Shown in pieces: positions 1 through 21,118 of a stretch of DNA of 24,075 nucleotides. This stretch comes from a virus. Location of the stretch: positions 1 through 24,075 of the IMG/VR virus record IMGVR_UViG_3300021963_000644. One strand, written 5' to 3'. A program made the position numbers and the translations under genes. The notes below the pieces were generated by a model. It was not told the origin of the DNA. It saw only the letters and a program-made list of their open reading frames with translations, and did no database searches. Every line of letters begins with the position of its first letter. Position 1 is the stretch's first letter.

Positions 1-872
1 ATGGAATCTCTGGGGCAGTCACAAACAAGTGGAGCAAAGGAAGCGGAGGCCCAGCAGGAGATGAACACTACAACCTCATCGCCGGAGTCGCTGACCGAGG
101 AGACGCAGGACTGGTAGAGCAACTGCCTGTAGTCCTAGATCGTGCGGCCTACTCGCAAGGCATCAACGCCAAGTACGATCCGCTTATCAAGCACGACAAT
201 GCAGTGCCTGCCTTGGTAGCCCGTGGCCCTCACGCCATCCAGCCCCCGCCCATCGCCTTCAAGGTTCGATGTGGTGGCGAGTACTCCGGCACTAAAGGCG
301 GAGAGGTTAAGCCTAATGAGCGTGGCGGTACTGGTATGCTTCACTACGAAGACAAGACCTTCACTGTCGCCGCAACCCAAGACCAGTTCGTAGCAACCCC
401 TCAACAGGTAGTCTACGAGAACCATCCGAACGACAGCCGTGTCACCGGCCCTCACGACGTTGCGCCTACCATTGCTGCACGTTTCGGTACGGGCGGTGGC
501 AACGTGCCGTTCGTACAGAAGACTGGCGAGGTAATCTCTTGGCAACCTGGCAACCTTCGTCGAGCTGCCGGTGCAGAGCCTAACACTGAAACCACCACGA
601 CGCTCAAGGCTTCTATGGGTGACCAGATTCCCCACATCGCCACCCCGATGGCGGTACGTCGTCTGACCCCTGAGGAGTGTGAGAGGTTGCAGGGCTTCCC
701 GTCTGGCTGGACTAGAATCCCGTGGCGTGGCAAGCCTGCCAGCGAATGCCCGGACGGAGCAAGGTACAAGTGTATCGGGAATAGTATGACGACTAATGTG
801 ATGCGCTGGATCGGTATGCGTATCCAGATGGTCGATGCACTGGTTTCCGAATTGAGCAACTCCAAGGGGTAG
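1..872 (+). CDS. DNA cytosine-C5 methyltransferase, C-terminal part (5' end outside window)
   Basis: The gene enters the window already open, read in the frame beginning at base 3, and leaves about 290 residues before a TAG stop. The first visible residues (GAVTNKWSKGSGGPAGDEH) are the stretch typical of phage Dcm-like enzymes after motif VIII. A target-recognition-like region follows. Near the C terminus RRLTPEECERLQGFP is motif IX and KCIGNSMTTNVMRWIG is motif X. The catalytic PC and ENV motifs must lie upstream. Members methylate C5 of cytosine using S-adenosylmethionine, and phages often use them to protect their DNA from host restriction. The recognition sequence cannot be read from what is visible. 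The family assignment is secure; completeness of the upstream part is unknown. Confidence 0.92.
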   Translation, partial: GISGAVTNKWSKGSGGPAGDEHYNLIAGVADRGDAGLVEQLPVVLDRAAYSQGINAKYDPLIKHDNAVPALVARGPHAIQPPPIAFKVRCGGEYSGTKGGEVKPNERGGTGMLHYEDKTFTVAATQDQFVATPQQVVYENHPNDSRVTGPHDVAPTIAARFGTGGGNVPFVQKTGEVISWQPGNLRRAAGAEPNTETTTTLKASMGDQIPHIATPMAVRRLTPEECERLQGFPSGWTRIPWRGKPASECPDGARYKCIGNSMTTNVMRWIGMRIQMVDALVSELSNSKG

Positions 873-1427: not shown

Positions 1428-1498
1428 TTTAACTTAGGGGTTGACTGGGTAGTACCAGGTCCTTTGTGTGGGTACGTCTTAACTGACATATCCCTAAT

Positions 1499-1514
1499 AC
1501 ACACACACACGCAT
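1499..1514 (+). promoter_or_regulatory. CA-repeat leader directly before ATG 1515
   Basis: An alternating AC run ending in GCAT abuts the start codon, and there is no Shine-Dalgarno sequence. Four other genes (3257, 4526, 4853, 6724) have the same type of leader. It decides the start at 1515 over an earlier in-frame ATG at 1464. Confidence 0.6.
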
Positions 1515-2300
1515 ATGGACACTGAACACACTAACACCCCGATCGAAAAGTACCAGGACCTTACCCGTCTCGCGCTTACTCCGGCCCAGACGCAACTGAA
1601 GGCTGCCTGGGATAATGCCACTGCCGAACTGTGCATTCTTAATAATAAGATTGCCGGTCTGTATGACATCAAACGGGAACGTCGTCTGAAGGTTTCCGAA
1701 CGGGAGGAACTAGCCTTCCTCAGTGGTCAACACGAACTGGTTAAGAAACAGTTCGACGCGGCTGCCGGTGCATACGCTAAGGCAATCGAAGACGATCTGC
1801 GGAATCACGTTCTGCATTATGTAATCACTGCAATGGAGTCTGCCGGTCTGCCTGGTCTAATCGACTATAACTCTAAACGCAGTGGTTACTATTCCGACGT
1901 GTACTACCAGCCTAAGCCGGGTTGCGCCAAACTGCGTGTGCAGATTCAACTGGACTGGAAGACCGGCACTCTCAGTGAAATCAGTTTCAACACTGAGCCT
2001 GATGCGTCCGGCAATTATCATTCCTTCCGAGTCAACAGGAACTGGAAGCATAAGAACGTACACGAGTACGCACTGGGAACCTGGTACGTTAGCACCAGCT
2101 GCCTTTCGATCCAGCCGGATGAGTCTCAGTCCGTAATGATTGCACTGTCCTTTGCCTGCCAGGTTGCCAGTGCCTTGTACTGCCGTATTCCCGGCGACGC
2201 TGCCATTGCCTATATGAATCACACTAAAGACTTGAGTGACTTCGTCGAATATGAACGTCACCTGGAGGAACGCGCCAAACGTAAGGACACTGCCGAATAA
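1515..2300 (+). CDS. Hypothetical phage protein, 261 aa
   Basis: This is the largest gene of the left block and I do not recognise it. The start at ATG 1515 is chosen because it directly follows the CA-repeat leader; beginning at 1464 would translate that repeat into an unnatural IHTHTHM stretch. Residues about 25-100 are rich in Ala, Lys, Glu and Leu and likely form long helices or a coiled coil. From about residue 120 the sequence becomes mixed alpha/beta with many Tyr, Ser and Asn (for example SGYYSDVYYQPKPG). The last 25 residues are charged and helical. There are no signal peptide, membrane segments or recognisable catalytic motif. It is followed after 20 AT-rich bases by another unknown gene. 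An early-expressed host-interaction protein is possible but unproven. Confidence 0.8.
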   Translation: MDTEHTNTPIEKYQDLTRLALTPAQTQLKAAWDNATAELCILNNKIAGLYDIKRERRLKVSEREELAFLSGQHELVKKQFDAAAGAYAKAIEDDLRNHVLHYVITAMESAGLPGLIDYNSKRSGYYSDVYYQPKPGCAKLRVQIQLDWKTGTLSEISFNTEPDASGNYHSFRVNRNWKHKNVHEYALGTWYVSTSCLSIQPDESQSVMIALSFACQVASALYCRIPGDAAIAYMNHTKDLSDFVEYERHLEERAKRKDTAE

Positions 2301-2309
2301 TATTATAAA
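2272..2309 (+). promoter_or_regulatory. GCGCCA...AATATTATAAA element, copy 2
   Basis: GCGCCA at 2272 lies inside the end of the preceding gene. AATATTATAAA at 2299-2309 lies in the spacer before ATG 2321, and this 11-mer is identical to one at 6048-6058. CCGGC is reduced to GCCG. It is a promoter candidate, weaker than the copies at 1393, 6023 and 7347. Confidence 0.3.
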
Positions 2310-2320
2310 GATTTACTATA

Positions 2321-2719
2321 ATGGAATCTCTAGACGATCTACTCTCCCGTGCCGAAGTGTGCGCTTTCGACCTGGGTGAAAAATACGGAAAGGCACACGC
2401 AAACTGGATTGAGCAAGATTTGTTCGGCGGACGTTGCACCGGCAATCAGGCTGAAGCTGCACGTGCCGTGCTTAAGGCAATCGACGATTGCGACGACCGG
2501 CTTTATGACGGGTTGCCGAATCTCTCCGGCGAATGGGCAGACTCTCCTACCCCGCGCTCAATCCTGGAAGACGTATTTCATTATATGAATGTCACCAGTG
2601 AATATGAGCAGACGCAACTGGAAGACATTCTGGACGATTTATGTGAGCAATGGGAATGTGGGGTTCGATCTGGATTTGAATCTGAACTGCACCGGCTTGC
2701 CACTAACGCATCTAACTAA
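2321..2719 (+). CDS. Hypothetical acidic protein, 132 aa
   Basis: I cannot place this protein in a family. It is strongly acidic and mostly helical by composition. Its N terminus is MESLDDLLSRAEVCAFDLG, and acidic helices around QLEDILDDLCEQWECG lie near the C terminus. Four cysteines are scattered and do not form an obvious metal site. The ATG lies 20 nt after the previous stop in an AT-rich spacer without a Shine-Dalgarno sequence. It ends one base before the next ATG, so translation of the two is probably coupled. Small acidic proteins in phage early regions sometimes mimic DNA or block host enzymes. That is only a general precedent; nothing in this sequence proves it. Confidence 0.75.
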   Translation: MESLDDLLSRAEVCAFDLGEKYGKAHANWIEQDLFGGRCTGNQAEAARAVLKAIDDCDDRLYDGLPNLSGEWADSPTPRSILEDVFHYMNVTSEYEQTQLEDILDDLCEQWECGVRSGFESELHRLATNASN

Positions 2720-2720
2720 A

Positions 2721-2993
2721 ATGAGTCTCGATCCCACACTAGAGGAAATGGAAGACTTCCTGCGCCAGAACACCGGCAGTCTGATTGACTGGACTGACTA
2801 TGTTGCGAACTACCAATTCAGAATCGCTGCACATTACTTTGCCTCACACAATTATTCTGGTGAACATTCAAACCTGTACCAGGCCATATGCCGGATTGAT
2901 TATCATTCCTGTAATGAAATGGAATTGGAAGATGAGCCGGATGAGGAAGTGCATCTGATGTATAAACTTTTAACTGACAAATATTCCAAATGA
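2721..2993 (+). CDS. Hypothetical acidic protein, 90 aa
   Basis: This gene has no recognisable family. ATG 2721 is chosen because it follows the preceding TAA by a single base; the longer open frame reaching back to 2589 would overlap that gene by over 100 bases. The protein is acidic and aromatic-rich (LIDWTDYVANYQF), with a Glu/Asp cluster at MELEDEPDEEVHLM near the C terminus. The TGA stop overlaps the next ATG as ATGA, a strong sign of translational coupling in one transcript. It contains a GCGCCAGAACACCGGC string at 2762 that resembles the control element seen elsewhere, but no AT box follows at the expected distance. Confidence 0.75.
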   Translation: MSLDPTLEEMEDFLRQNTGSLIDWTDYVANYQFRIAAHYFASHNYSGEHSNLYQAICRIDYHSCNEMELEDEPDEEVHLMYKLLTDKYSK

Positions 2994-3235
2994 AAATAAC
3001 GATTAAGGAAGACGCAATGGGTTGCCTGCATATGTGGGCCGGTGACGTGCTTGCTGCCGGCTGCAAGTATACCTGGAAGGCAGAAGGCAAATGGGCAGAC
3101 ACGTATGTCCAAAGCGAAGACGACGTGCGCCACATTAAAGACGATCTGAAGCCGGACGACCTGGATATGTTAGAGTCTGGTTATCAAATAACTGTTGACT
3201 ATCTGCCAGAAGAGTATGTCACTCCTATCGAGTAA
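2990..3235 (+). CDS. Hypothetical protein, 81 aa
   Basis: I do not recognise this protein. The start overlaps the previous stop by four bases (ATGA), which fixes it well. The sequence begins MKITIKEDAMGCLHMWAGDV and looks like a small mixed alpha/beta domain, with alternating hydrophobic residues suggesting strands at both ends (MKITI and YQITVDYL). The acidic middle section is SEDDVRHIKDDLKPDDLDML. There is no signal peptide or membrane span. It is the last gene of a three-gene coupled run (2321-3235). A CA-repeat leader and a separately initiated gene follow. Confidence 0.75.
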   Translation: MKITIKEDAMGCLHMWAGDVLAAGCKYTWKAEGKWADTYVQSEDDVRHIKDDLKPDDLDMLESGYQITVDYLPEEYVTPIE

Positions 3236-3256
3236 CCTTTCCCCCCACACACACAT
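3236..3256 (+). promoter_or_regulatory. C-run plus CA-repeat leader before ATG 3257
   Basis: CTTTCCCCCCACACACACAT lies directly before the start and has no Shine-Dalgarno sequence. It is almost identical to the leaders at 4838 and 6708, which supports a shared role in translation or RNA binding. Confidence 0.65.
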
Positions 3257-3562
3257 ATGAGCAAACCAAAAAAGAAAAAGGAAGTTAAAGTCTACACGAT
3301 CTCGGAAACGATTTTCGTTTCCTTCCAGGTCGTCGCAACGTCTGAGGAAGACGCACAGGACGCATACCGGAATCTTCCCACTGAGAAGTGGCAGGAGATG
3401 GTAGCAGACGCTGCGTCGAATAACTATTGCGACGACGAAGTGACAGACGAAGACGAATACACTGAGGAAGACTACGGCGACGAAGACCTGTATCCGAAGA
3501 CTGACAAAGCGAAAAAAGCAATCTTAGACAATTCCTCACTTGAGGAAGAGCAAAATGGGTAA
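3257..3562 (+). CDS. Hypothetical protein with acidic tail, 101 aa
   Basis: I do not recognise a family. The start follows a C-run/CA leader. The first dozen residues are lysine-rich (SKPKKKKEVKVY). Residues about 13-50 look like a small beta-alpha unit (TISETIFVSFQVVATSEEDA) of a kind common in tiny phage proteins. From about residue 60 to 82 the chain is almost entirely Asp, Glu, Thr and Tyr and is probably disordered. The charge split between head and tail is striking and might mediate binding to basic protein surfaces, but no function is shown. It overlaps the next gene by eight bases. Confidence 0.8.
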   Translation: MSKPKKKKEVKVYTISETIFVSFQVVATSEEDAQDAYRNLPTEKWQEMVADAASNNYCDDEVTDEDEYTEEDYGDEDLYPKTDKAKKAILDNSSLEEEQNG

Positions 3563-3794
3563 GCGACGTGTCACTGCGTTCGATCTGGGGTACGGACTGG
3601 CCGGTCAGCTGCACGTCTTCCAGATTCCTGCCGGTATGCGAGTGCGTCGCGCCACAAACCTTCCCAAACGGGAAGGCAAATGGACATACTGGCTTAACCA
3701 GATTCCTCCGGCTTATAAGAAGGACAGTAACTTCCTTTCCCTCTATAGGGGTTACGGGGTACACCTGGAGGAACGTGAGACTCGGATGATGTAA
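3555..3794 (+). CDS. Hypothetical basic protein, 79 aa
   Basis: I do not recognise this small basic protein. ATG 3555 is preceded by GAGGAAGAG, one of the few Shine-Dalgarno-like sequences in this half of the window, and it overlaps the previous gene by eight bases. An upstream in-frame TTG at 3540 is less likely. The sequence has a compact look: MGKRRVTAFDLGYGLAGQL, then RVRRATNLPKREGKWTYWL and a hydrophobic/aromatic C-terminal half. There is no membrane segment. It ends its transcription block: a good hairpin terminator begins 24 nt after the stop. Confidence 0.75.
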   Translation: MGKRRVTAFDLGYGLAGQLHVFQIPAGMRVRRATNLPKREGKWTYWLNQIPPAYKKDSNFLSLYRGYGVHLEERETRMM

Positions 3795-3817
3795 CGGAAT
3801 CACCGGGCAAGGTACAC

Positions 3818-3845
3818 GGGTACACGGGTATGTGTACCCTTTTTT
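3818..3845 (+). terminator. Rho-independent terminator
   Basis: A perfect 8-bp stem GGGTACAC/GTGTACCC with a six-base loop (GGGTAT) is followed directly by TTTTTT. It ends the block of genes from 2321 or 3257 to 3794. Confidence 0.85.
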
Positions 3846-3876
3846 GTGCCGTCTGGGGTAGGGGTAGGGTATGCTA

Positions 3877-3904
3877 TATACACGCACGCACGCACACGCA
3901 CGCG
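3877..3904 (+). repeat. CGCA/CA microsatellite-like run
   Basis: CACGCACGCACGCACACGCACG forms an alternating purine-pyrimidine tract just after the terminator. It resembles the CA leaders of other genes and precedes a possible GTG start at 3908. Alternating CG/CA tracts are prone to slippage and to left-handed DNA. Confidence 0.6.
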
Positions 3905-3907
3905 CCA

Positions 3908-4042
3908 GTGTGTGCCTGCCGTCGGCACGTCCGGGCCGTCGCCGATCAGGAGCCTGGCCCAGCTGCCGTTGCGATCAGGAGCCTGGCAGTCCCGGCTTAC
4001 GTCGTCGCCGGTGTGCGCCTGGAAGACGTAATGAAAAAATGA
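3908..4042 (+). CDS. Possible small protein, 44 aa
   Basis: This is a tentative call. A GTG start sits right after the CA-rich tract, as in five better-supported genes, and the TGA stop overlaps the following ATG as ATGA, the junction style of this phage. The product would be Ala/Val/Arg-rich, ending GVRLEDVMKK. Against it, two exact 16-bp direct repeats inside lie 29 bases apart and so fall in different reading frames. That is unusual for coding sequence, and the stretch may instead be regulatory. No family is recognisable. Confidence 0.25.
   Translation: MCACRRHVRAVADQEPGPAAVAIRSLAVPAYVVAGVRLEDVMKK
3943..3987 (+). repeat. 16-bp direct repeat pair
   Basis: CGATCAGGAGCCTGGC occurs at 3943-3958 and 3972-3987, 29 bases apart start to start. 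A related inverted string (AGGCTCCTGGC) lies near 1277. This may be a protein-binding site or a duplication footprint. Confidence 0.75.
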
Positions 4043-4152
4043 GTACGTGCGGACGCTGCACCGGCTTCCTAACTCTCCTGGCAGTCCTGCAAATAGGTTT
4101 ACTTTTTCCTTTACTCTATGGCACACGGGCATTCACTCCTGACTGCACCTAA
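4039..4152 (+). CDS. Tiny single-span membrane peptide, 37 aa
   Basis: ATG 4039 opens a 37-codon frame with one hydrophobic segment at about residues 9-28 (GFLTLLAVLQIGLLFPLLYG). It is flanked by MSTCGRCT on the N-terminal side and TRAFTPDCT after it. Two cysteines near the N terminus (CGRC) could form a disulphide or bind metal. The TAA stop is followed after four bases by the next ATG. It is one of four tiny hydrophobic ORFs in the window. Candidate roles are a host-membrane modifier, a superinfection factor or a holin accessory. No lysis cassette is adjacent, so none is favoured. Confidence 0.6.
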   Translation: MSTCGRCTGFLTLLAVLQIGLLFPLLYGTRAFTPDCT

Positions 4153-4156
4153 TCCT

Positions 4157-4492
4157 ATGCGCCTACCTAATCCTGATGTAACTGCCGAACGTCTAATGAA
4201 GTACCTGAACCATCAGGCAACAGATGAGACTGTCCGGCAGGCTTTCCTTAATGCCTCCAGGGATTCCAATTCCTGCCCCCAGGGTCTTCTTAACCTGGCT
4301 TACAACCTGGTTGAACTGGCCCAGGTCATTCTGGAAAATGCCGAGTACGCGGCTAAATATGAAGATGAACAGAACCGGCAGTACGTCGGAACGGATGATG
4401 AGACGGAGTCTCTCCTGCCTCACATTAAGGAGTTTGACCAGGCACTGCAAAAGGCAGTTGACGACGTCGCCGGTAATGTCCCTATGTCTTAA
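4157..4492 (+). CDS. Hypothetical helical protein, 111 aa
   Basis: I do not recognise this protein. I chose ATG 4157 over 4118 because the junction ACCTAATCCTATGCG repeats at the 6577 start (CCTAATCCTATGCG) and is close to that before 6324; the longer version would overlap the membrane peptide. The product is acidic and almost wholly helical. One likely long helix runs through LLNLAYNLVELAQVILENAE and another through IKEFDQALQKAVDDVAG near the end. There is no membrane span or catalytic motif. It is followed by a CA leader and another unknown gene. Confidence 0.75.
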   Translation: MRLPNPDVTAERLMKYLNHQATDETVRQAFLNASRDSNSCPQGLLNLAYNLVELAQVILENAEYAAKYEDEQNRQYVGTDDETESLLPHIKEFDQALQKAVDDVAGNVPMS

Positions 4493-4498
4493 CCGATC

Positions 4499-4525
4499 TT
4501 TTCCCCCACACACACGCACACACAT
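4499..4525 (+). promoter_or_regulatory. C-run plus long CA-repeat leader before ATG 4526
   Basis: A TTTTCCCCC start is followed by a CA repeat with one CG step, ending in CACACAT at the start codon. It is the longest member of the family of five and has no Shine-Dalgarno sequence. Confidence 0.65.
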
Positions 4526-4837
4526 ATGAGTAAAAAGAAACACACGGGCAAGTCCCTACACCGGCAGGCAAAGCAAGATGATGCCGAACAACTGGCAATC
4601 GCACTGCAGACCTGTTGCTCCTATGCTAATTCCTGCCTTACGGAAGACGGGATTAACCTGGAAACGAATGAGTACTATTATCGGGTAGTTGAACACGTTT
4701 GTGAAATCGATTTCGACAACTCTATGCATTATAAACAGTACGCAAAGGAACTGAATAAGTTCGCTGCCGTGTGCGAGACTCTCGCGCTACAGTTCCGGCA
4801 AGCTGCAATCAACACAATGGAAGCCGGCCACGAATAA
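4526..4837 (+). CDS. Hypothetical helical protein, 103 aa
   Basis: This protein is not recognised. It begins with a basic segment (MSKKKHTGKSLHRQAKQD) and continues as a largely helical, mildly acidic chain with four cysteines (CC near residue 30, then two singles plus one more near the C-terminal third). The C-terminal helix is AVCETLALQFRQAAINTME. The start is defined by the CA leader immediately upstream. The gene lies between two CA leaders, so it is probably translated independently of its neighbours. No function can be assigned. Confidence 0.75.
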   Translation: MSKKKHTGKSLHRQAKQDDAEQLAIALQTCCSYANSCLTEDGINLETNEYYYRVVEHVCEIDFDNSMHYKQYAKELNKFAAVCETLALQFRQAAINTMEAGHE

Positions 4838-4852
4838 TTTCCCCCCACACAT
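4838..4852 (+). promoter_or_regulatory. C-run plus CA leader before ATG 4853
   Basis: TTTCCCCCCACACAT directly precedes the start and begins at the end of the previous gene. It is the shortest version of the shared leader, and there is no Shine-Dalgarno sequence. Confidence 0.65.
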
Positions 4853-5491
4853 ATGAGCAAACAACCGAAAAAGCGAACTGCCCGGGCACTGGAGTACGTC
4901 ACCAGTGACGGGGTAAACTACACAATCCCAAAAGGGCTAATGTGCATCCGAGTGCCTGGCACGTGCAGGCAAGACGGGGTAATGGTCACCAACCCCTGGG
5001 TACTGCACGAAACCCCAGACGAGTACAGAGACAACTGGCATTTCCTGAAGTACGGGAAAACTTGTGGGTACATCATTAAAGAGGAGTACCTGGAAGACTA
5101 CCCAATCCCTCCCAAGGTATGGTTACGCAAGTTTAAGGAACTGTGCGCTGAGTCTGACGACCTGGGTACTATGGAAGACGGGAAGACAGTCCCCTCCGAT
5201 CTGATTCTGGAATGGGCCAGGACTACCATAGGCTCGACCTATTCCGAGTCTTATGAGCCGGACCGGCTGCTAAAGATTTGGAATCAAGTCTGGCACGGCG
5301 AAGTGAAAAACGAAATTGAGTTTGCCCAGACGCACCTGGAGGAATGTGAGTGGGACACTTATAAGGCACTCGATAAAGCCGGTCTGTTAGGCTGCTTTGA
5401 CTTCGGCCATTACTGGGAGTCACTCCTGCGCCACGACTACCAGGTCACAGTCTGGGAGGGACGTCACTTCATTACACGGCGGAACTGGTGA
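4853..5491 (+). CDS. Hypothetical protein, 212 aa
   Basis: I do not recognise this protein. It begins MSKQPKKRTARALEYVTSDG and appears to have an N-terminal beta-rich part (VNYTIPKGLMCIRVPG, then GKTCGYIIKEEYL). From about residue 90 it becomes helical and tryptophan-rich (PPKVWLRKFKELCAES, LLKIWNQVWHGEVKN, FGHYWESLLRHDYQ). There is no clear catalytic signature, signal peptide or membrane segment. The CA leader fixes the start. The TGA stop lies directly before a tiny hydrophobic ORF and a terminator, so this is the last sizeable gene of its block. A nucleic-acid or host-protein binding role cannot be separated from other options. Confidence 0.8.
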   Translation: MSKQPKKRTARALEYVTSDGVNYTIPKGLMCIRVPGTCRQDGVMVTNPWVLHETPDEYRDNWHFLKYGKTCGYIIKEEYLEDYPIPPKVWLRKFKELCAESDDLGTMEDGKTVPSDLILEWARTTIGSTYSESYEPDRLLKIWNQVWHGEVKNEIEFAQTHLEECEWDTYKALDKAGLLGCFDFGHYWESLLRHDYQVTVWEGRHFITRRNW

Positions 5492-5492
5492 C

Positions 5493-5549
5493 GTGCTTTT
5501 GTTCGTCGCGCTAGTCCTGGTACTAGCATACTTCGCAAGGGGCCGTTAA
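5493..5549 (+). CDS. Possible 18-aa hydrophobic peptide
   Basis: A GTG start one base after the previous stop opens 18 codons giving VLLFVALVLVLAYFARGR: a membrane-spanning hydrophobic run with a positive tail. Its stop codon lies in the loop of a terminator hairpin. Length and composition resemble micro-membrane peptides, and three other tiny membrane ORFs occur in this window. The length is so small that chance cannot be excluded. Confidence 0.3.
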   Translation: MLLFVALVLVLAYFARGR

Positions 5550-5560
5550 TCGGCCCCTTT
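5538..5560 (+). terminator. Rho-independent terminator
   Basis: AAGGGGCCG and CGGCCCCTT form a 9-bp stem around the loop TTAAT, followed by a short, interrupted T tract (TTTCC). It ends the block containing the 4853 gene. Confidence 0.7.
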
Positions 5561-5609
5561 CCTTTGGCCCAGTTGCCGGACTGGTGACCAGCTGCCCTTC
5601 TCTGATCTC

Positions 5610-5626
5610 AACCCAGGTCCTGGGTT
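5610..5626 (+). repeat. Perfect inverted repeat AACCCAG-GTC-CTGGGTT
   Basis: A 7-bp palindrome with a 3-nt centre carries the same CCTGGGT core as the iterons at 5895, 5929 and 5984. It is probably a dimeric protein-binding site. Confidence 0.6.
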
Positions 5627-5631
5627 ACCCC

Positions 5632-5653
5632 GTACAGACCCCGCGCCAAGTCA
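5632..5653 (+). repeat. GTACAG-N3-CCGCGCCAAGTCA direct repeat, copy 1
   Basis: Both parts recur with identical spacing at 6012-6033; only the three middle bases differ. Each copy is followed by an AT-rich stretch and a GGCCTGGCAGGCCC block. Confidence 0.75.
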
Positions 5654-5700
5654 GAGTCAGGAATTAAATAGATTAGAAAACCACTAAATCGCATTAGAGG

Positions 5701-5714
5701 GGCCTGGCAGGCCC
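5701..5714 (+). repeat. GGCCTGGCAGGCCC direct repeat, copy 1
   Basis: This 14-bp element, itself nearly palindromic, recurs exactly at 6119-6132, each time downstream of a CCGCGCCAAGTCA element. Confidence 0.7.
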
Positions 5715-5756
5715 GTAGAGACGGGTTTACTTTTGCCTATATCTACCCCTAGACCG

Positions 5757-5787
5757 GCCCCTGTAAGCGATTCTGGGGGCATTTTTT
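5757..5787 (+). terminator. Possible Rho-independent terminator
   Basis: GCCCC and GGGGC form a 5-bp stem with a 14-nt loop, followed by A and six Ts. The loop is long, so this is a weaker candidate than the terminators at 3818 and 7176. Confidence 0.35.
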
Positions 5788-5894
5788 AATCACTGATAAT
5801 CAACAACTTACGCAATTTGTAAAAAAGTGTAAAAACACCCCTAAATTACCGAATCATTACTAATGTTATAAGGATTAGGCAGGGTCTTAACCTT

Positions 5895-5997
5895 TAATCC
5901 TGGGTAATCTTATCAGGATTGCCTGATCTAATCCTGGGTTCCTTACTAATGATTACAACTTTACAACTTTTTAACATTACATCATTACCCAGGATTA
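5895..5997 (+). repeat. TAATCCTGGGT iteron cluster
   Basis: TAATCCTGGGTAAT at 5895-5908 has an exact inverted copy at 5984-5997. A third direct copy (TAATCCTGGGTT) lies at 5929-5940. Between them sits a separate palindrome ATCAGG-ATTG-CCTGAT (5912-5927). The arrangement resembles initiator or repressor binding arrays. Confidence 0.65.
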
Positions 5998-6011
5998 CAG
6001 GTTAAAGGGGT

Positions 6012-6058
6012 GTACAGTAACCGCGCCAAGTCACACCGGCTTTTAACAATATTATAAA
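6012..6058 (+). promoter_or_regulatory. Second GTACAG/CCGCGCCAAGTCA copy with CCGGC and TTATAAA box
   Basis: Copy 2 of the direct repeat (6012-6033) continues into CCGGC (6036) and TTATAAA (6052). This matches the composite element at 1393 and 7347. It is the closest such element upstream of the block starting at 6324. Confidence 0.45.
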
Positions 6059-6118
6059 CCTGAAAGTGCATTCATAAGTAACTGATTAGTAACGACTTAT
6101 GACTTTCTGAAAAAGTAT

Positions 6119-6132
6119 GGCCTGGCAGGCCC
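6119..6132 (+). repeat. GGCCTGGCAGGCCC direct repeat, copy 2
   Basis: This is an exact second copy of the 5701-5714 element, and an AGAG follows a few bases later in both cases. Confidence 0.7.
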
Positions 6133-6323
6133 TCAGAGGCCGTTTCAGGGGTCAGTCCATAGCAGGACACGGGCAAAGTAAACCCGTCTTACAACCGAAA
6201 ATAGGGGTATTTACGGCCTATTTCGAGTTAGGAGCCAGGAAAACGGGCCAAAAGTGCCATTTTTCTCTGATCTCTCTTTACACCGGCTTGTGCCTGTTTA
6301 CTGTATGGATGCACCTAATCCTA

Positions 6324-6572
6324 ATGAGTATCACTACCAAACAACGGGCCGTTGCTTACGCACGTGCCCATCAACTGCCAGAAGCAAACCAGGTCTGCGT
6401 GTCTGGAAGGCTCTGCGCCACTGGTCCGGGAGTCGGGCCAATCGGAGGCGAAGACTGGGTTTGGTTCATCACTGATGCCGAAGCTGCCGACGCCGGCTTA
6501 CTCGTCGCTGCCCGTCGTGTGGGCGAGACGTTCCTAATCGACGGCGAGACCTGGCACTCCATTCCTGCCTAA
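6324..6572 (+). CDS. Hypothetical protein, 82 aa
   Basis: I do not recognise this protein. ATG 6324 is chosen because it follows the CCTAATCCTAATG junction resembling those at 4157 and 6577; the frame remains open back to 6117, but that part overlaps repeats and looks non-coding. The product is Ala/Gly/Val-rich, with a helical N-terminal part (MSITTKQRAVAYARAHQLPE) and a likely beta-rich rest (GGEDWVWFITDAEAADAGL, VGETFLIDGETW). No catalytic motif is evident. It is the first gene after the repeat-rich hub. Its stop is followed after four bases by a tiny membrane-peptide gene. Confidence 0.65.
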   Translation: MSITTKQRAVAYARAHQLPEANQVCVSGRLCATGPGVGPIGGEDWVWFITDAEAADAGLLVAARRVGETFLIDGETWHSIPA

Positions 6573-6576
6573 TCCT

Positions 6577-6669
6577 ATGCGCTACCATATCGAACTGGCC
6601 CTAGTGGTCTTCTCTGTCCTGCTCCTCATCTGGGCCGGCTTCAACCTGGCTCACATTGCTCTGTCCTGA
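6577..6669 (+). CDS. Tiny single-span membrane peptide, 30 aa
   Basis: ATG 6577 opens a 30-codon frame whose residues 6-27 form one hydrophobic segment (ELALVVFSVLLLIWAGFNLA) after MRYHI. The start lies four bases after the previous TAA in the recurring CCTAATCCTATGCG junction, which argues for real translation by coupling. Charge at the N terminus is weak, so orientation is uncertain. It is analogous in size and position to the 37-residue peptide at 4039. No function is known. Confidence 0.6.
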   Translation: MRYHIELALVVFSVLLLIWAGFNLAHIALS

Positions 6670-6707
6670 CATGATCTCTCTCTGACTAGCCAGGAAAAAG
6701 TAAACAC

Positions 6708-6723
6708 TTCCCCCCACACACAT
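6708..6723 (+). promoter_or_regulatory. C-run plus CA leader before ATG 6724
   Basis: TTCCCCCCACACACAT directly precedes the start codon and nearly duplicates the leaders at 3236 and 4838. There is no Shine-Dalgarno sequence. Confidence 0.65.
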
Positions 6724-7155
6724 ATGAAACTGAATCCAATACAAATGGCCCTAATGCGTCTCACTTCGTACACGCACAAGCCCGCAGACCTGGCAGTTGT
6801 CGCCGGTGCTATGGAGCATACTGCGTGCGCCCTGCACGAACTCGCCCTTGACGGCGAACGCACCCAGGCAGAGCGAGACGCACTAACTGCCGGTGCTATG
6901 GCACTCGTCTCACTCGCCAAAGAACTGGAGGCAGGCGGAGAGACTGAAGCAAGCGACGACTATCTCCAACGTGCGTTCGCTGCTTCCTCTTCCTACACAC
7001 TCCGCACTAACACGCACGAGCATACCCAGGAAGGCGAAGACGACGACGAACGTATGGACCGGCTACAGAGGCAATCGAACTACGGCGAAGAACCCACTGA
7101 ACACGATTCCCCCGCACGTCTAGAGCAAGTAAACGAACTACCTGACTCGGAGTAA
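6724..7155 (+). CDS. Hypothetical helical acidic protein, 143 aa
   Basis: I do not recognise a family. The first 95 residues are Ala/Leu/Glu-rich and probably a helical bundle (for example AGAMEHTACALHELALDGER and ALTAGAMALVSLAKELEAGG). The last 45 residues are hydrophilic, highly acidic and likely disordered (EGEDDDERMDRLQRQ). The start follows a C-run/CA leader. A strong terminator begins 20 nt after the stop, so this gene closes the left transcription region before the structural genes. There is no membrane span or signal peptide. Confidence 0.78.
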   Translation: MKLNPIQMALMRLTSYTHKPADLAVVAGAMEHTACALHELALDGERTQAERDALTAGAMALVSLAKELEAGGETEASDDYLQRAFAASSSYTLRTNTHEHTQEGEDDDERMDRLQRQSNYGEEPTEHDSPARLEQVNELPDSE

Positions 7156-7175: not shown

Positions 7176-7202
7176 AGGCCCAGGTCAAACTGGGCCTTTT
7201 TT
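7176..7202 (+). terminator. Strong Rho-independent terminator
   Basis: The perfect 8-bp stem AGGCCCAG/CTGGGCCT with loop GTCAAA ends in TTTTTT. It separates the left block from the late control region. Confidence 0.9.
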
Positions 7203-8524: not shown

Positions 8525-8599
8525 GCCTTGGTAGCACAATGGCAGTGCGCCTGTTTTGTAAACAGGGGGTTGCCGGTTCGACTCCGGCCCAAGGCTCCA
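8525..8599 (+). tRNA. tRNA-Thr (anticodon UGU), CCA encoded
   Basis: A full cloverleaf can be drawn. The acceptor is GCCTTGG/CCAAGGC, the D stem GCAC/GTGC, the anticodon stem CCTGT/ACAGG with loop TTTGTAA and the T stem GCCGG/CCGGC with loop TTCGACT. The anticodon TGT reads ACA threonine codons. The discriminator base is T, followed by an encoded CCA at 8597-8599. It lies between two protein genes in the same direction, so it is probably processed from the late transcript. Confidence 0.95.
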
Positions 8600-14398: not shown

Positions 14399-14419
14399 TC
14401 CCCCCTACCCCCTACTACT

Positions 14420-15448
14420 ATGCCCTCACTTCTCGAAAAGAATATCGTCAACGCTGGTAAGCGTGAAGACCTCGCCAACCTCATCGCTATGGTCGATGCG
14501 AAGGACACTCCCTTCACCTCGATGGCGAAGAAGGGTGCGCAGCCCGGTAACACGATCTTCCGCTGGCAGGCTGACCGCCTCCCCGCCACCACTGCCCCGA
14601 CACCCATCGTCGATGGTACTGACGTTGACCCGAACACCGGCACGACTAACTTCGTGAACGATGGTACGACCCAGTTCCGTGTTGAACTGAGCAATCGTAT
14701 CCAGATCTTCCGCAAGGCTGTCCGTGTCTCGAAACTGACCCAGGACGTCGCTAACATCGCTGGTGTTAAGGACGAACTCGCCAACAACGTCTCCAAGGCC
14801 ATTACGCTCATCAAGCGTGATATGGAAGTGGCGATGTGTGGCAACCAGGCTGCTCAGGTCGATAACGGCACTGTCGGCTATCGTACCCGTGGTCTTGACA
14901 AGTGGATCGTCGCCGCCGCCAATATCGACACTGTCGATCTCCCGGCTGCTGCTTCGGCCTTCTGCCCGTCTGCCTCGCAGATTTCCTCTGTCGGCACAGC
15001 TGCTCTTACCGAGACTGTCGTGCAGGATATCCTGACCGGCATCTACTCCCAGACCGGCCAGTTCAAGGACTACGACGCTCTCGTCGGCCCGACCCTCAAG
15101 CGTGCCTTCACGAACCTCGTCTTCACGACCACAGCCTCCGGCACGAACCAGTACCAGAGCGTCCGCACGTTCAATCGTGATGCCGACTCTTCGTCCTACG
15201 TCTCGTCCGTCGATGTGTTTGAAGGTGACTTCGGCCGCATCCGCCTCCACCCGTCCCTGTTCCTGAAGAACAACTTCAGCGGTTACATCATCCCGTTCGA
15301 CCAGGTCGAAGTCCGCTACGGCGGTAACGTCGCCCAGGTTTCCGAGTTGCAGGACAATGGTGGTGGCCCTGCTCGCCTGATCGAAGCGGTTGCCGGCCTC
15401 TGCGTCTACAACCCGCTGGCGTTCGGTAAGTTCGACTTCACTGCCTAA
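14420..15448 (+). CDS. Major capsid protein (SU10/DUF5309 family)
   Basis: A 342-residue protein following the scaffold. The N-terminal arm reads KDTPFTSMAKKGAQPGNTIF and is followed by RWQADRL. The stretch FRVELSNRIQIFRKAVRVSK with a later ITLIKRDMEVAMCG helix is the pattern of the SU10/DUF5309 HK97-fold capsid family. Beta-rich A-domain segments fill the rest (for example GDFGRIRLHPSLFLKNNFSG). It forms the icosahedral shell. The start follows a C-rich leader ending CCCCCTACTACT, with no Shine-Dalgarno sequence, although this should be the most strongly expressed gene. Confidence 0.93.
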   Translation: MPSLLEKNIVNAGKREDLANLIAMVDAKDTPFTSMAKKGAQPGNTIFRWQADRLPATTAPTPIVDGTDVDPNTGTTNFVNDGTTQFRVELSNRIQIFRKAVRVSKLTQDVANIAGVKDELANNVSKAITLIKRDMEVAMCGNQAAQVDNGTVGYRTRGLDKWIVAAANIDTVDLPAAASAFCPSASQISSVGTAALTETVVQDILTGIYSQTGQFKDYDALVGPTLKRAFTNLVFTTTASGTNQYQSVRTFNRDADSSSYVSSVDVFEGDFGRIRLHPSLFLKNNFSGYIIPFDQVEVRYGGNVAQVSELQDNGGGPARLIEAVAGLCVYNPLAFGKFDFTA

Positions 15449-19852: not shown

Positions 19853-21118
19853 ATGGCTCAAATCCAATCCCCAGAAACGTATGCTGACGGCCAACAGGTC
19901 ACGGCAGCTCGCCTCAACAATCAGACCAACGGGGCAGTGCTGCTGCCCGGCGCTGTAACAGACCAGACCCCGATTTCCGGCGGTGTGGCTTCTGGCGACG
20001 GCCTCATCGTCCACGATGCCTCTGCTTCGGCTCTCCGTAAGGCCACTGTCACCGAACTGCTTGGAAGCGGAAGTCCGGTGGTTGCATCGTCCTTGACTGG
20101 CGTAACTGGCTCAGACCTCACAATTACCCCTGCTGCCAGCCAGAAGGTTGATGTGGTTGGACTCATTCAAGCCCAGACGCTTACCACTACTGGCAATGCG
20201 ACCATTCAGGGTGAAGCGCAACTTGCTAATGTTGCTGTCGGAGGCTCTGCAAGTTTCAACACAAACACGGCAATTAAGATTCCAGTCGGAATCACTGGCG
20301 ACCGCCCTACAGTCCCTCTTGCCGGACATCTGCGTTACAACTCCACACTAGACCAGGCCGAAATCTATTCGGGTACTGAATGGAAAGCGGTGGGTGGTAG
20401 CCCTTTTGACGCTAGCGGAGGTGTGATTACGACTATTGATGGCTATAAGATCCACACTTATACTGTCTCTGGTACTTTCACTCCTTCGCTGACCAAAGAG
20501 GGTAAGGTCGAAGTACTTGTCGTTGGCGGGGGTGGTGGTGGCGCAAACTATAACCCTCACGGAGGCGGTGGTGGTGGTGGTGCTGTTGTTTCTGGATTTA
20601 TTAATATCGCCAAGAATACGAGTCCAATTTCTGTTGTAGTTGGCACTGGTGGCGCTTCCGGCTCCGGCGGTGGAACCTCTTACTTCAGCACATTTACTTC
20701 CCCCGGAGGTAATTCCGGGTCTGGATATTCTGGGGGATCGTCTGGAACTGCTAATGCTGGAAGTAATGGTGGCCCATCTTCTGGCGGCGGTGGCGGTGGC
20801 GGCGCTAAAACAGTTGGCTTGGGGACAGCCGCAGGAGGACACTTTGGAGGTGAAGGGTTTGGGTCTTCTATTAGCGGAACACTTAAATCCTATGGTGGTG
20901 GCGGTGGTGGTGGTGGCTCTCCATATTCAGGATCTTCCAACTCTCCCGGTGTTGGACTTTCTGGTGGTGCTAATGGCGCTTGGGGAAGTTCCAACGCAAG
21001 TGTCGCAGTCGCAAACTCTGGCGGTGGCGGGGGCGGGGGTTCACTTTTCTCTGACCCAGATAGATACGCATCTTCTGGCGCTGACGGCATCGTTATCATC
21101 CGTTACCGAGTCTCCTAA
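19853..21118 (+). CDS. Tail fibre/adhesin with glycine-rich receptor-binding region, 421 aa
   Basis: The N-terminal 110 residues look like a virion anchor and trimeric shaft (MAQIQSPETYADGQQVTAAR). A linker of the kind found in cyanophage and other fibres follows (GDRPTVPLAGHLRYNSTLDQ, then AEIYSGTEWKAVGG). From about residue 195 the HTYTVSGTFTPS entry leads into a glycine-rich domain with five poly-Gly tracts, closing with GADGIVIIRYRVS. Known adhesins of this architecture pack polyglycine helices into a sandwich and bind surface receptors with the loops between them. It probably determines host range. The stop overlaps the following ATG (TAATG). Confidence 0.88.
   Translation: MAQIQSPETYADGQQVTAARLNNQTNGAVLLPGAVTDQTPISGGVASGDGLIVHDASASALRKATVTELLGSGSPVVASSLTGVTGSDLTITPAASQKVDVVGLIQAQTLTTTGNATIQGEAQLANVAVGGSASFNTNTAIKIPVGITGDRPTVPLAGHLRYNSTLDQAEIYSGTEWKAVGGSPFDASGGVITTIDGYKIHTYTVSGTFTPSLTKEGKVEVLVVGGGGGGANYNPHGGGGGGGAVVSGFINIAKNTSPISVVVGTGGASGSGGGTSYFSTFTSPGGNSGSGYSGGSSGTANAGSNGGPSSGGGGGGGAKTVGLGTAAGGHFGGEGFGSSISGTLKSYGGGGGGGGSPYSGSSNSPGVGLSGGANGAWGSSNASVAVANSGGGGGGGSLFSDPDRYASSGADGIVIIRYRVS

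Follow-up and report, generated by a model that had tools for sequence, protein, structure and literature searches.

The DNA considered here is the complete IMG/VR virus record IMGVR_UViG_3300021963_000644 (24,075 bases, hereafter "the window"), a fragment of a tailed-phage genome. Our subject is a short leader, built of a run of C followed by CA repeats, that stands directly before the start codons of five of its genes and probably serves their translation. Genes are named by the window position of their first base. In the window, the terminase gene was identified by PHROG 2 and the major capsid gene by PHROG 1328, and the remaining head and tail genes were assigned from order and homology only. 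A nucleotide search against GenBank phages gave no near match to the window, and the best GenBank-phage match of its terminase reaches only 30% (Phage C75C1). The same terminase has 80 relatives in IMG/VR at 61-99% identity, several of them in records of 42-45 kb.

The Leaders and Their Genes

As the initial annotation had claimed, genes 1515, 3257, 4526, 4853, and 6724 all begin directly 3' of CA repeats (Table 1). It was also right that a C-run is present in four of the five; these follow the pattern TT(T)CCCCC(C)(CA)n, and gene 1515 has CA repeats only. Every one of the five ends in CATATG (positions 1512, 3254, 4523, 4850, and 6721), a word that occurs 15 times in the 24 kb of the window, the five leaders included, and twice in 8.9 kb of the sister phage L364. 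The counts were made with restriction avoidance in mind, as a possible cause of the CATATG/CACATG difference described below. Family searches in Pfam and PHROG with the five leader proteins gave no significant match.

Table 1. Leaders, leader genes, and the capsid gene in the window
Feature	Position	Strand	Remarks
CA-only leader ACACACACACACGCAT, without C-run	1499..1514	+	first gene of cluster
Leader gene 1515	1515..2300	+	261 aa; no Pfam or PHROG match
C-run/CA leader TTCCCCCCACACACACAT	3239..3256	+	before gene 3257
Leader gene 3257	3257..3562	+	101 aa; lysine-rich N-terminus MSKPKKKKE; no family match
C-run/CA leader TTTTCCCCCACACACACGCACACACAT	4499..4525	+	before gene 4526
Leader gene 4526	4526..4837	+	103 aa; no significant family match
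C-run/CA leader TTTCCCCCCACACAT	4838..4852	+	directly 3' of the preceding gene's TAA
Leader gene 4853	4853..5491	+	212 aa; no family match
C-run/CA leader TTCCCCCCACACACAT	6708..6723	+	before gene 6724
Leader gene 6724	6724..7155	+	143 aa; no family match
G-free C-run leader TCCCCCCTACCCCCTACTACT of major capsid gene	14399..14419	+	
Major capsid protein gene	14420..15448	+	PHROG 1328 major head protein, E 1.4e-51

These sequences are far more frequent than composition would predict. Allowing at most one mismatch, CACACATATG occurs 8 times in the window (1.09 expected) and CCCCCACACA 7 times (1.86 expected), with none of 100 shuffles as high in either case; all seven copies of the latter lie in coding-strand leaders. 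It had been foreseen that the case would fall if CA runs were equally common away from start codons. They are not: runs of at least four units all lie within the five leaders. Three-unit runs are found outside the leaders too (8 on the + and 4 on the - strand), and C-runs of at least five bases are common throughout the window, so that only the combination of C-run and CA is specific.

A GU-rich stretch lies 5' of gene 1515 (GTGTGGG, within window 1462-1514) and of its orthologs (GTGTGTGTGTCC in L103 and L092). In all four predicted folds it is able to pair with the gene's own CA leader, although not far beyond what shuffled sequences allow. The two may form a hairpin that masks the start, which would be a peculiarity of the cluster's first gene.

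Conservation, Portability, and Group Specificity

A motif search in IMG/VR relatives, proposed in the initial annotation as a check, found the leader kept at orthologous starts; a pattern of conserved genes with leaders that are not conserved, which would have spoken against a function, is not what the relatives display. The sister phage L364 retains all five leaders. Its ortholog of gene 1515 (84.7% protein identity) has ACACACACGCAC before the ATG, its leader at 4526 is a shorter form (TTCCCCCCAC), and the leader ends differ in parallel between the two phages, being CATATG at 5/5 in the window and CACATG at 5/5 in L364. For gene 3257, the leader is present in all seven relatives with a usable start, L364 being the seventh (e.g., TTTCCCACACACACACACATG in L103, TTTCCCACCACACCACAATG in L100, and TTTCCCCCACACACAACAATG in L097), and the leaders of 4853 and 6724 are kept in the orthologs of L092, L103, and L364. 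Distant orthologs of 4526 have no leader at their inferred starts, which are themselves uncertain, as the alignments begin at residue 9-11. Gene 2321 has a leader in the L103 and L092 orthologs and none in the window or L364. The spacing and length of the leader vary across records.

The leader belongs to the downstream gene and lies 3' of the stop codon of the upstream gene. Within the 3257 ortholog group, eight records have six different upstream neighbours, and yet the leader is kept with a gap that is always 17-21 nucleotides; in the 6724 group, each of the four records has an upstream neighbour of its own. In L364, an extra gene stands between the 2990 and 3257 orthologs (L364 4600-4860) with TTTCC at both junctions, compared with a single leader at the same junction in the window.

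Nor is the leader tied to one kind of protein. Of 20 records scanned, 18 contain leaders, 43 in all; the proteins encoded behind them fall into 25 groups that have no recognizable similarity to one another, and the leader is therefore not the mark of a duplicated gene family. Across the family, 26 of the 66 TTCC-[A/C] tracts containing CACA end at an ATG that opens a reading frame of at least 30 codons, and several of the remainder are leaders in which one more base, T or G, separates the tract from the ATG. In the controls, an ATG follows 3 of 52 such tracts in reversed sequence and 68 of 968 other CACA tracts.

The leader is specific to this group of uncultured phages. Long-gap wildcard scans of IMG/VR were dominated by chance matches and were replaced by filtered and exact A/C patterns. 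Exact scans of the whole collection with A/C-only spacers returned nine stretches, seven of them distinct, against three stretches for a reversed-pattern control. In five of the seven (L194/L254, L285, L487/L488, L489, and L490) the gene start is plausible and the protein resembles those of the phage group, though weakly in L490; of the other two, L175 opens 20 codons only and L486 an unrelated 91-codon frame. Among distant group members, the leader precedes recombination genes, namely ERF (L285 and L489) and a Rad52-like gene (G009 locus), and in L487 it precedes a gene with a weak PDDEXK match.

The initial annotation had also suggested the recent spread of one leader. This does not fit, because the carriers are diverged: leaders are common to orthologs with ∼45-85% protein identity, and leader-bearing members of the group have terminases that are only ∼63-65% identical.

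Shine-Dalgarno Words, Composition, and Structure

None of the five leaders has a purine-rich Shine-Dalgarno (SD) word, as was first noted; what does not stand is the implication that this sets these genes apart. SD-like words before starts are near background, with frequencies of 0.11 and 0.11 in the window and of 0.16 and 0.10, and 0.06 and 0.08, in relatives, the background being taken 40 nucleotides further upstream; in candidate host contigs, too, the excess over this background is slight, on small samples. The absence of SD words is a trait of the whole phage and its relatives and is therefore no distinguishing mark of the five leader genes.

Composition and predicted structure are more telling. 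The leaders contain 0-1 G in 15-27 nucleotides, and the noncoding DNA of the window has 21-34% G. When starts were folded with 60 nucleotides on each side, the mean unpaired fraction at the start was 0.80 for the five leader genes together with the capsid gene versus 0.55 for 24 other starts. The corresponding opening costs were 2.6 and 8.1 kcal/mol (Mann-Whitney p = 0.0003), in a comparison that covers one genome and 30 starts, several of them hand-picked, and counts the capsid gene as a leader gene. Gene 1515 is the exception, with an opening cost of 6.4.

The capsid leader had been put forward as a possible relative of the five. It is indeed of the same kind, being G-free, conserved, and furnished with C-runs, but CTA/ACTACT units replace the CA repeats and the motif is a different one. 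In 44 distinct relatives (down to 54% protein identity) the last 20 nucleotides before the capsid gene contain 2% G; there is no G in 35 of the 44 and a CCCC in 29. The gene for a product made in bulk therefore uses the same kind of leader.

The Likely Host and Its Own Starts

A terminase profile found seven relatives in GTDB genomes. Five are on Verrucomicrobia-type contigs of metagenome-assembled genomes (MAGs), namely Pedosphaera, Opitutae, Verrucomicrobiales, Opitutia, and Verrucomicrobia; the other two are in a Pontiellaceae MAG and, more distantly, a Flavobacteriaceae MAG. Because the terminase relatives sit mostly in Verrucomicrobia-type MAGs, a verrucomicrobial host is likely, bearing in mind that short MAG contigs can be misbinned.

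Use of the leader by likely hosts was not found. In six candidate host genomes, the leader pattern gave 6 matches versus 5 in the reversed control, mostly not A/C-only. Among 289 Verrucomicrobiota genomes, 20 had a match versus 8 in the reversed control, and in none of the 20 was the sequence between the anchors A/C-only. The comparison with leaders of host genes that the initial annotation had recommended revealed no likeness: host rpsL starts are AGGA-like in 26/29 cases, and host groEL starts are AGGA-like (14/26) or A-rich without SD, neither being of the C-run/CA type. The leader is therefore a phage feature and not a borrowed host start. Judging by the AGGA-like words at rpsL, SD has probably remained usable for the ribosomes of the host in some genes. 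The literature counts Akkermansia and Verrucomicrobia bacterium IMCC26134 among SD-scarce organisms (PMC10783764).

Other Features of the Window

The left end of the record (window 1-872) encodes the C-terminal part of a C-5 cytosine DNA methylase (Pfam PF00145), and a tRNA-Thr (anticodon TGT; 8525-8599) lies just 5' of the packaging genes. Two good terminator-like hairpins with T-runs, at 3818-3839 and 7176-7197, would bound gene clusters. A second short start type, CCTAATCCTATGCGC (stop TAA, TCCT, ATG), has two copies at window 4150-4159 and 6570-6579, and the start at 6577 opens a hydrophobic peptide of roughly 30 residues. Gene 19853-21118 contains a very glycine-rich stretch (20515-21060) and, judged by the look of its sequence only, probably encodes a tail-fibre-like protein.

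A Proposed Portable Start Element and Its Alternatives

Of the roles first considered for the leader, that of a non-SD translation enhancer is the best supported, given that it abuts the start, is kept at orthologs, follows the downstream gene, and leaves the start nearly structure-free. We infer that the leader is probably, though by no means certainly, a portable, structure-free, SD-independent translation-start element for genes that are uncoupled from the gene upstream. Such an element would span 10-30 nucleotides with hardly any G, in which a short U/C tract is followed by C and then by CA repeats up to the AUG. Because G-poor, C/A-rich RNA has little to pair with, the start codon would stay single-stranded and the 30S subunit could load without an SD helix; ribosomal protein S1 may also bind the U/C tract and the ACA units. 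The leader would then drive initiation, with S1 or the 30S platform as its presumed receptor, and would raise protein output. Genes that overlap the upstream stop would start by translational coupling and need no leader, and free-standing genes would carry one. A free-standing gene with its own leader could thus change neighbours without loss of its start, and spacing that is not fixed is what would be expected of an open landing site.

Several points weigh against this proposal. Not every free-standing gene carries the leader, 2321 and 7781 being without one in the window. The G/U-rich RNA upstream of gene 1515 can pair with its CA repeats, and the structure comparison has the narrow base described above. 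Above all, a lack of structure would permit any G-poor sequence, and the kept order of TTTCCC and then CA repeats is not explained by it, which leaves some modest room for a specific reader.

Such a reader would be a trans-acting factor, either an RNA-binding protein of phage or host (as the initial annotation had already suggested) or a small RNA, with the leader as its binding site and the marked genes as a translational regulon. A lack of structure would not demand a motif of so definite an order (U/C tract, C-run, CA repeats), and the parallel difference between the window and L364 at all five leaders points the same way. Start-proximal ends also tend to be alike within a genome (in 0.51 of within-genome pairs versus 0.35 of orthologous pairs; permutation p = 0.0024), a likeness that is uncorrected for, and confounded by, shared descent. 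In enterobacteria, CA-rich translation enhancers are the targets of GcvB, a small RNA rich in GU (PMC3879156), and the GU repeat before the 1515 orthologs is a lead for targeting of this type. However, the length of the leader varies widely, no candidate factor emerged, and the window and its close relatives showed no conserved G/U-rich complement to the C-run and CA core, save the antisense strand of the leaders and scattered short matches. We consider a trans-acting factor rather unlikely. We would likewise call it unlikely, and no better than a tentative suggestion, that a specific factor, encoded or recruited by the phage, reads the leader as a dedicated start tag, the unrelated movable genes forming one translational regulon that evolves together with this factor in a group that has given up SD signals.

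The turnover of upstream neighbours at the leader, together with the two TTTCC copies that flank the extra gene of L364, could also be read as the trace of a recombination linker between gene cassettes, exchanged via phage annealing proteins and only secondarily affecting translation. Annealing proteins of the ERF or Rad52 type are indeed present in related phages, and their genes have leaders of this sort. A pure linker, however, would have no need to adjoin the ATG, to lack G, or to be free of structure. Junctions without overlap are broken more readily whatever they contain, and most leaders are short for homologous exchange; we regard this account as unlikely. It is very unlikely that the leader is an element of transcription, either as a promoter of the phage or as the 5' end of mRNAs that have a very short leader or none. 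It does stand alone before genes, but in many cases it starts immediately at the stop codon of the gene before it, and its variable length and lack of G are unlike the promoters of single-subunit phage polymerases, with their fixed-length motif and G at the transcription start; matches to the two spaced hexamers of sigma-70-like promoters in the region are at shuffle level (6 vs. 6.5). Pairing of the leader with a G/U-rich stretch of 16S rRNA that would take the place of the anti-SD is possible in principle with GUGUGGGGGAAA-like rRNA and is hardly credible in practice. Against ten Verrucomicrobiota 16S sequences, complementarity extends over at most 8-10 nucleotides, the means for shuffled leaders are 8.35-9.1, and the sites differ by species. 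We reject this candidate as no better than shuffled leaders in those ten sequences, from which the 16S of the exact host may differ.

Relation to Known Systems and Significance

The portable start element that we favour has partial parallels elsewhere. The translation-enhancing leader of T7 gene 10 is likewise a phage leader that raises initiation just before its gene, but it acts together with an SD and serves a single gene, whereas here the leader is repeated on many. Initiation without SD is known to depend on a local lack of structure (Scharff et al. 2011, PMC3121790). The leader agrees with that work in having no SD and a weakly structured start region; it differs in that no general SD-replacing motif was found in bacteria or plastids, whereas here a motif recurs before unrelated genes in one phage group. 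The ACA motifs of yifK, dppA, and gltI are enhancers with flexible spacing, and an ACAA repeat has been reported to support SD-less initiation (Yang et al. 2014, PMC3879156). Shared features are the CA/ACA repeats close to the start and the flexible spacing; the ACA enhancers act with an SD in enteric bacteria, whereas the phage leader has none and its repeats, which follow a U/C tract, run up to the AUG. The Kozak-like, A-rich starts of Bacteroidota (Baez et al. 2019, PMC6847099) are also SD-less and tuned by upstream bases and low structure, but they have adenines at -3, -6, and -12/-13 in place of a C-run and CA repeats of variable length. The window leaders are not of this class, with C at -3 in all five; leaders of relatives that end in CAATG have A at -3, and none has an A-run.

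A portable leader repeated on at least 25 unrelated gene families amounts to many natural replicates with variation in length and bases. Which part of the leader is needed, and whether structure or sequence matters, becomes directly testable. The leader may also prove useful as an expression part in Verrucomicrobia and other bacteria poor in SD, and it suggests how the genes of mosaic phages stay translatable despite a change of neighbours.

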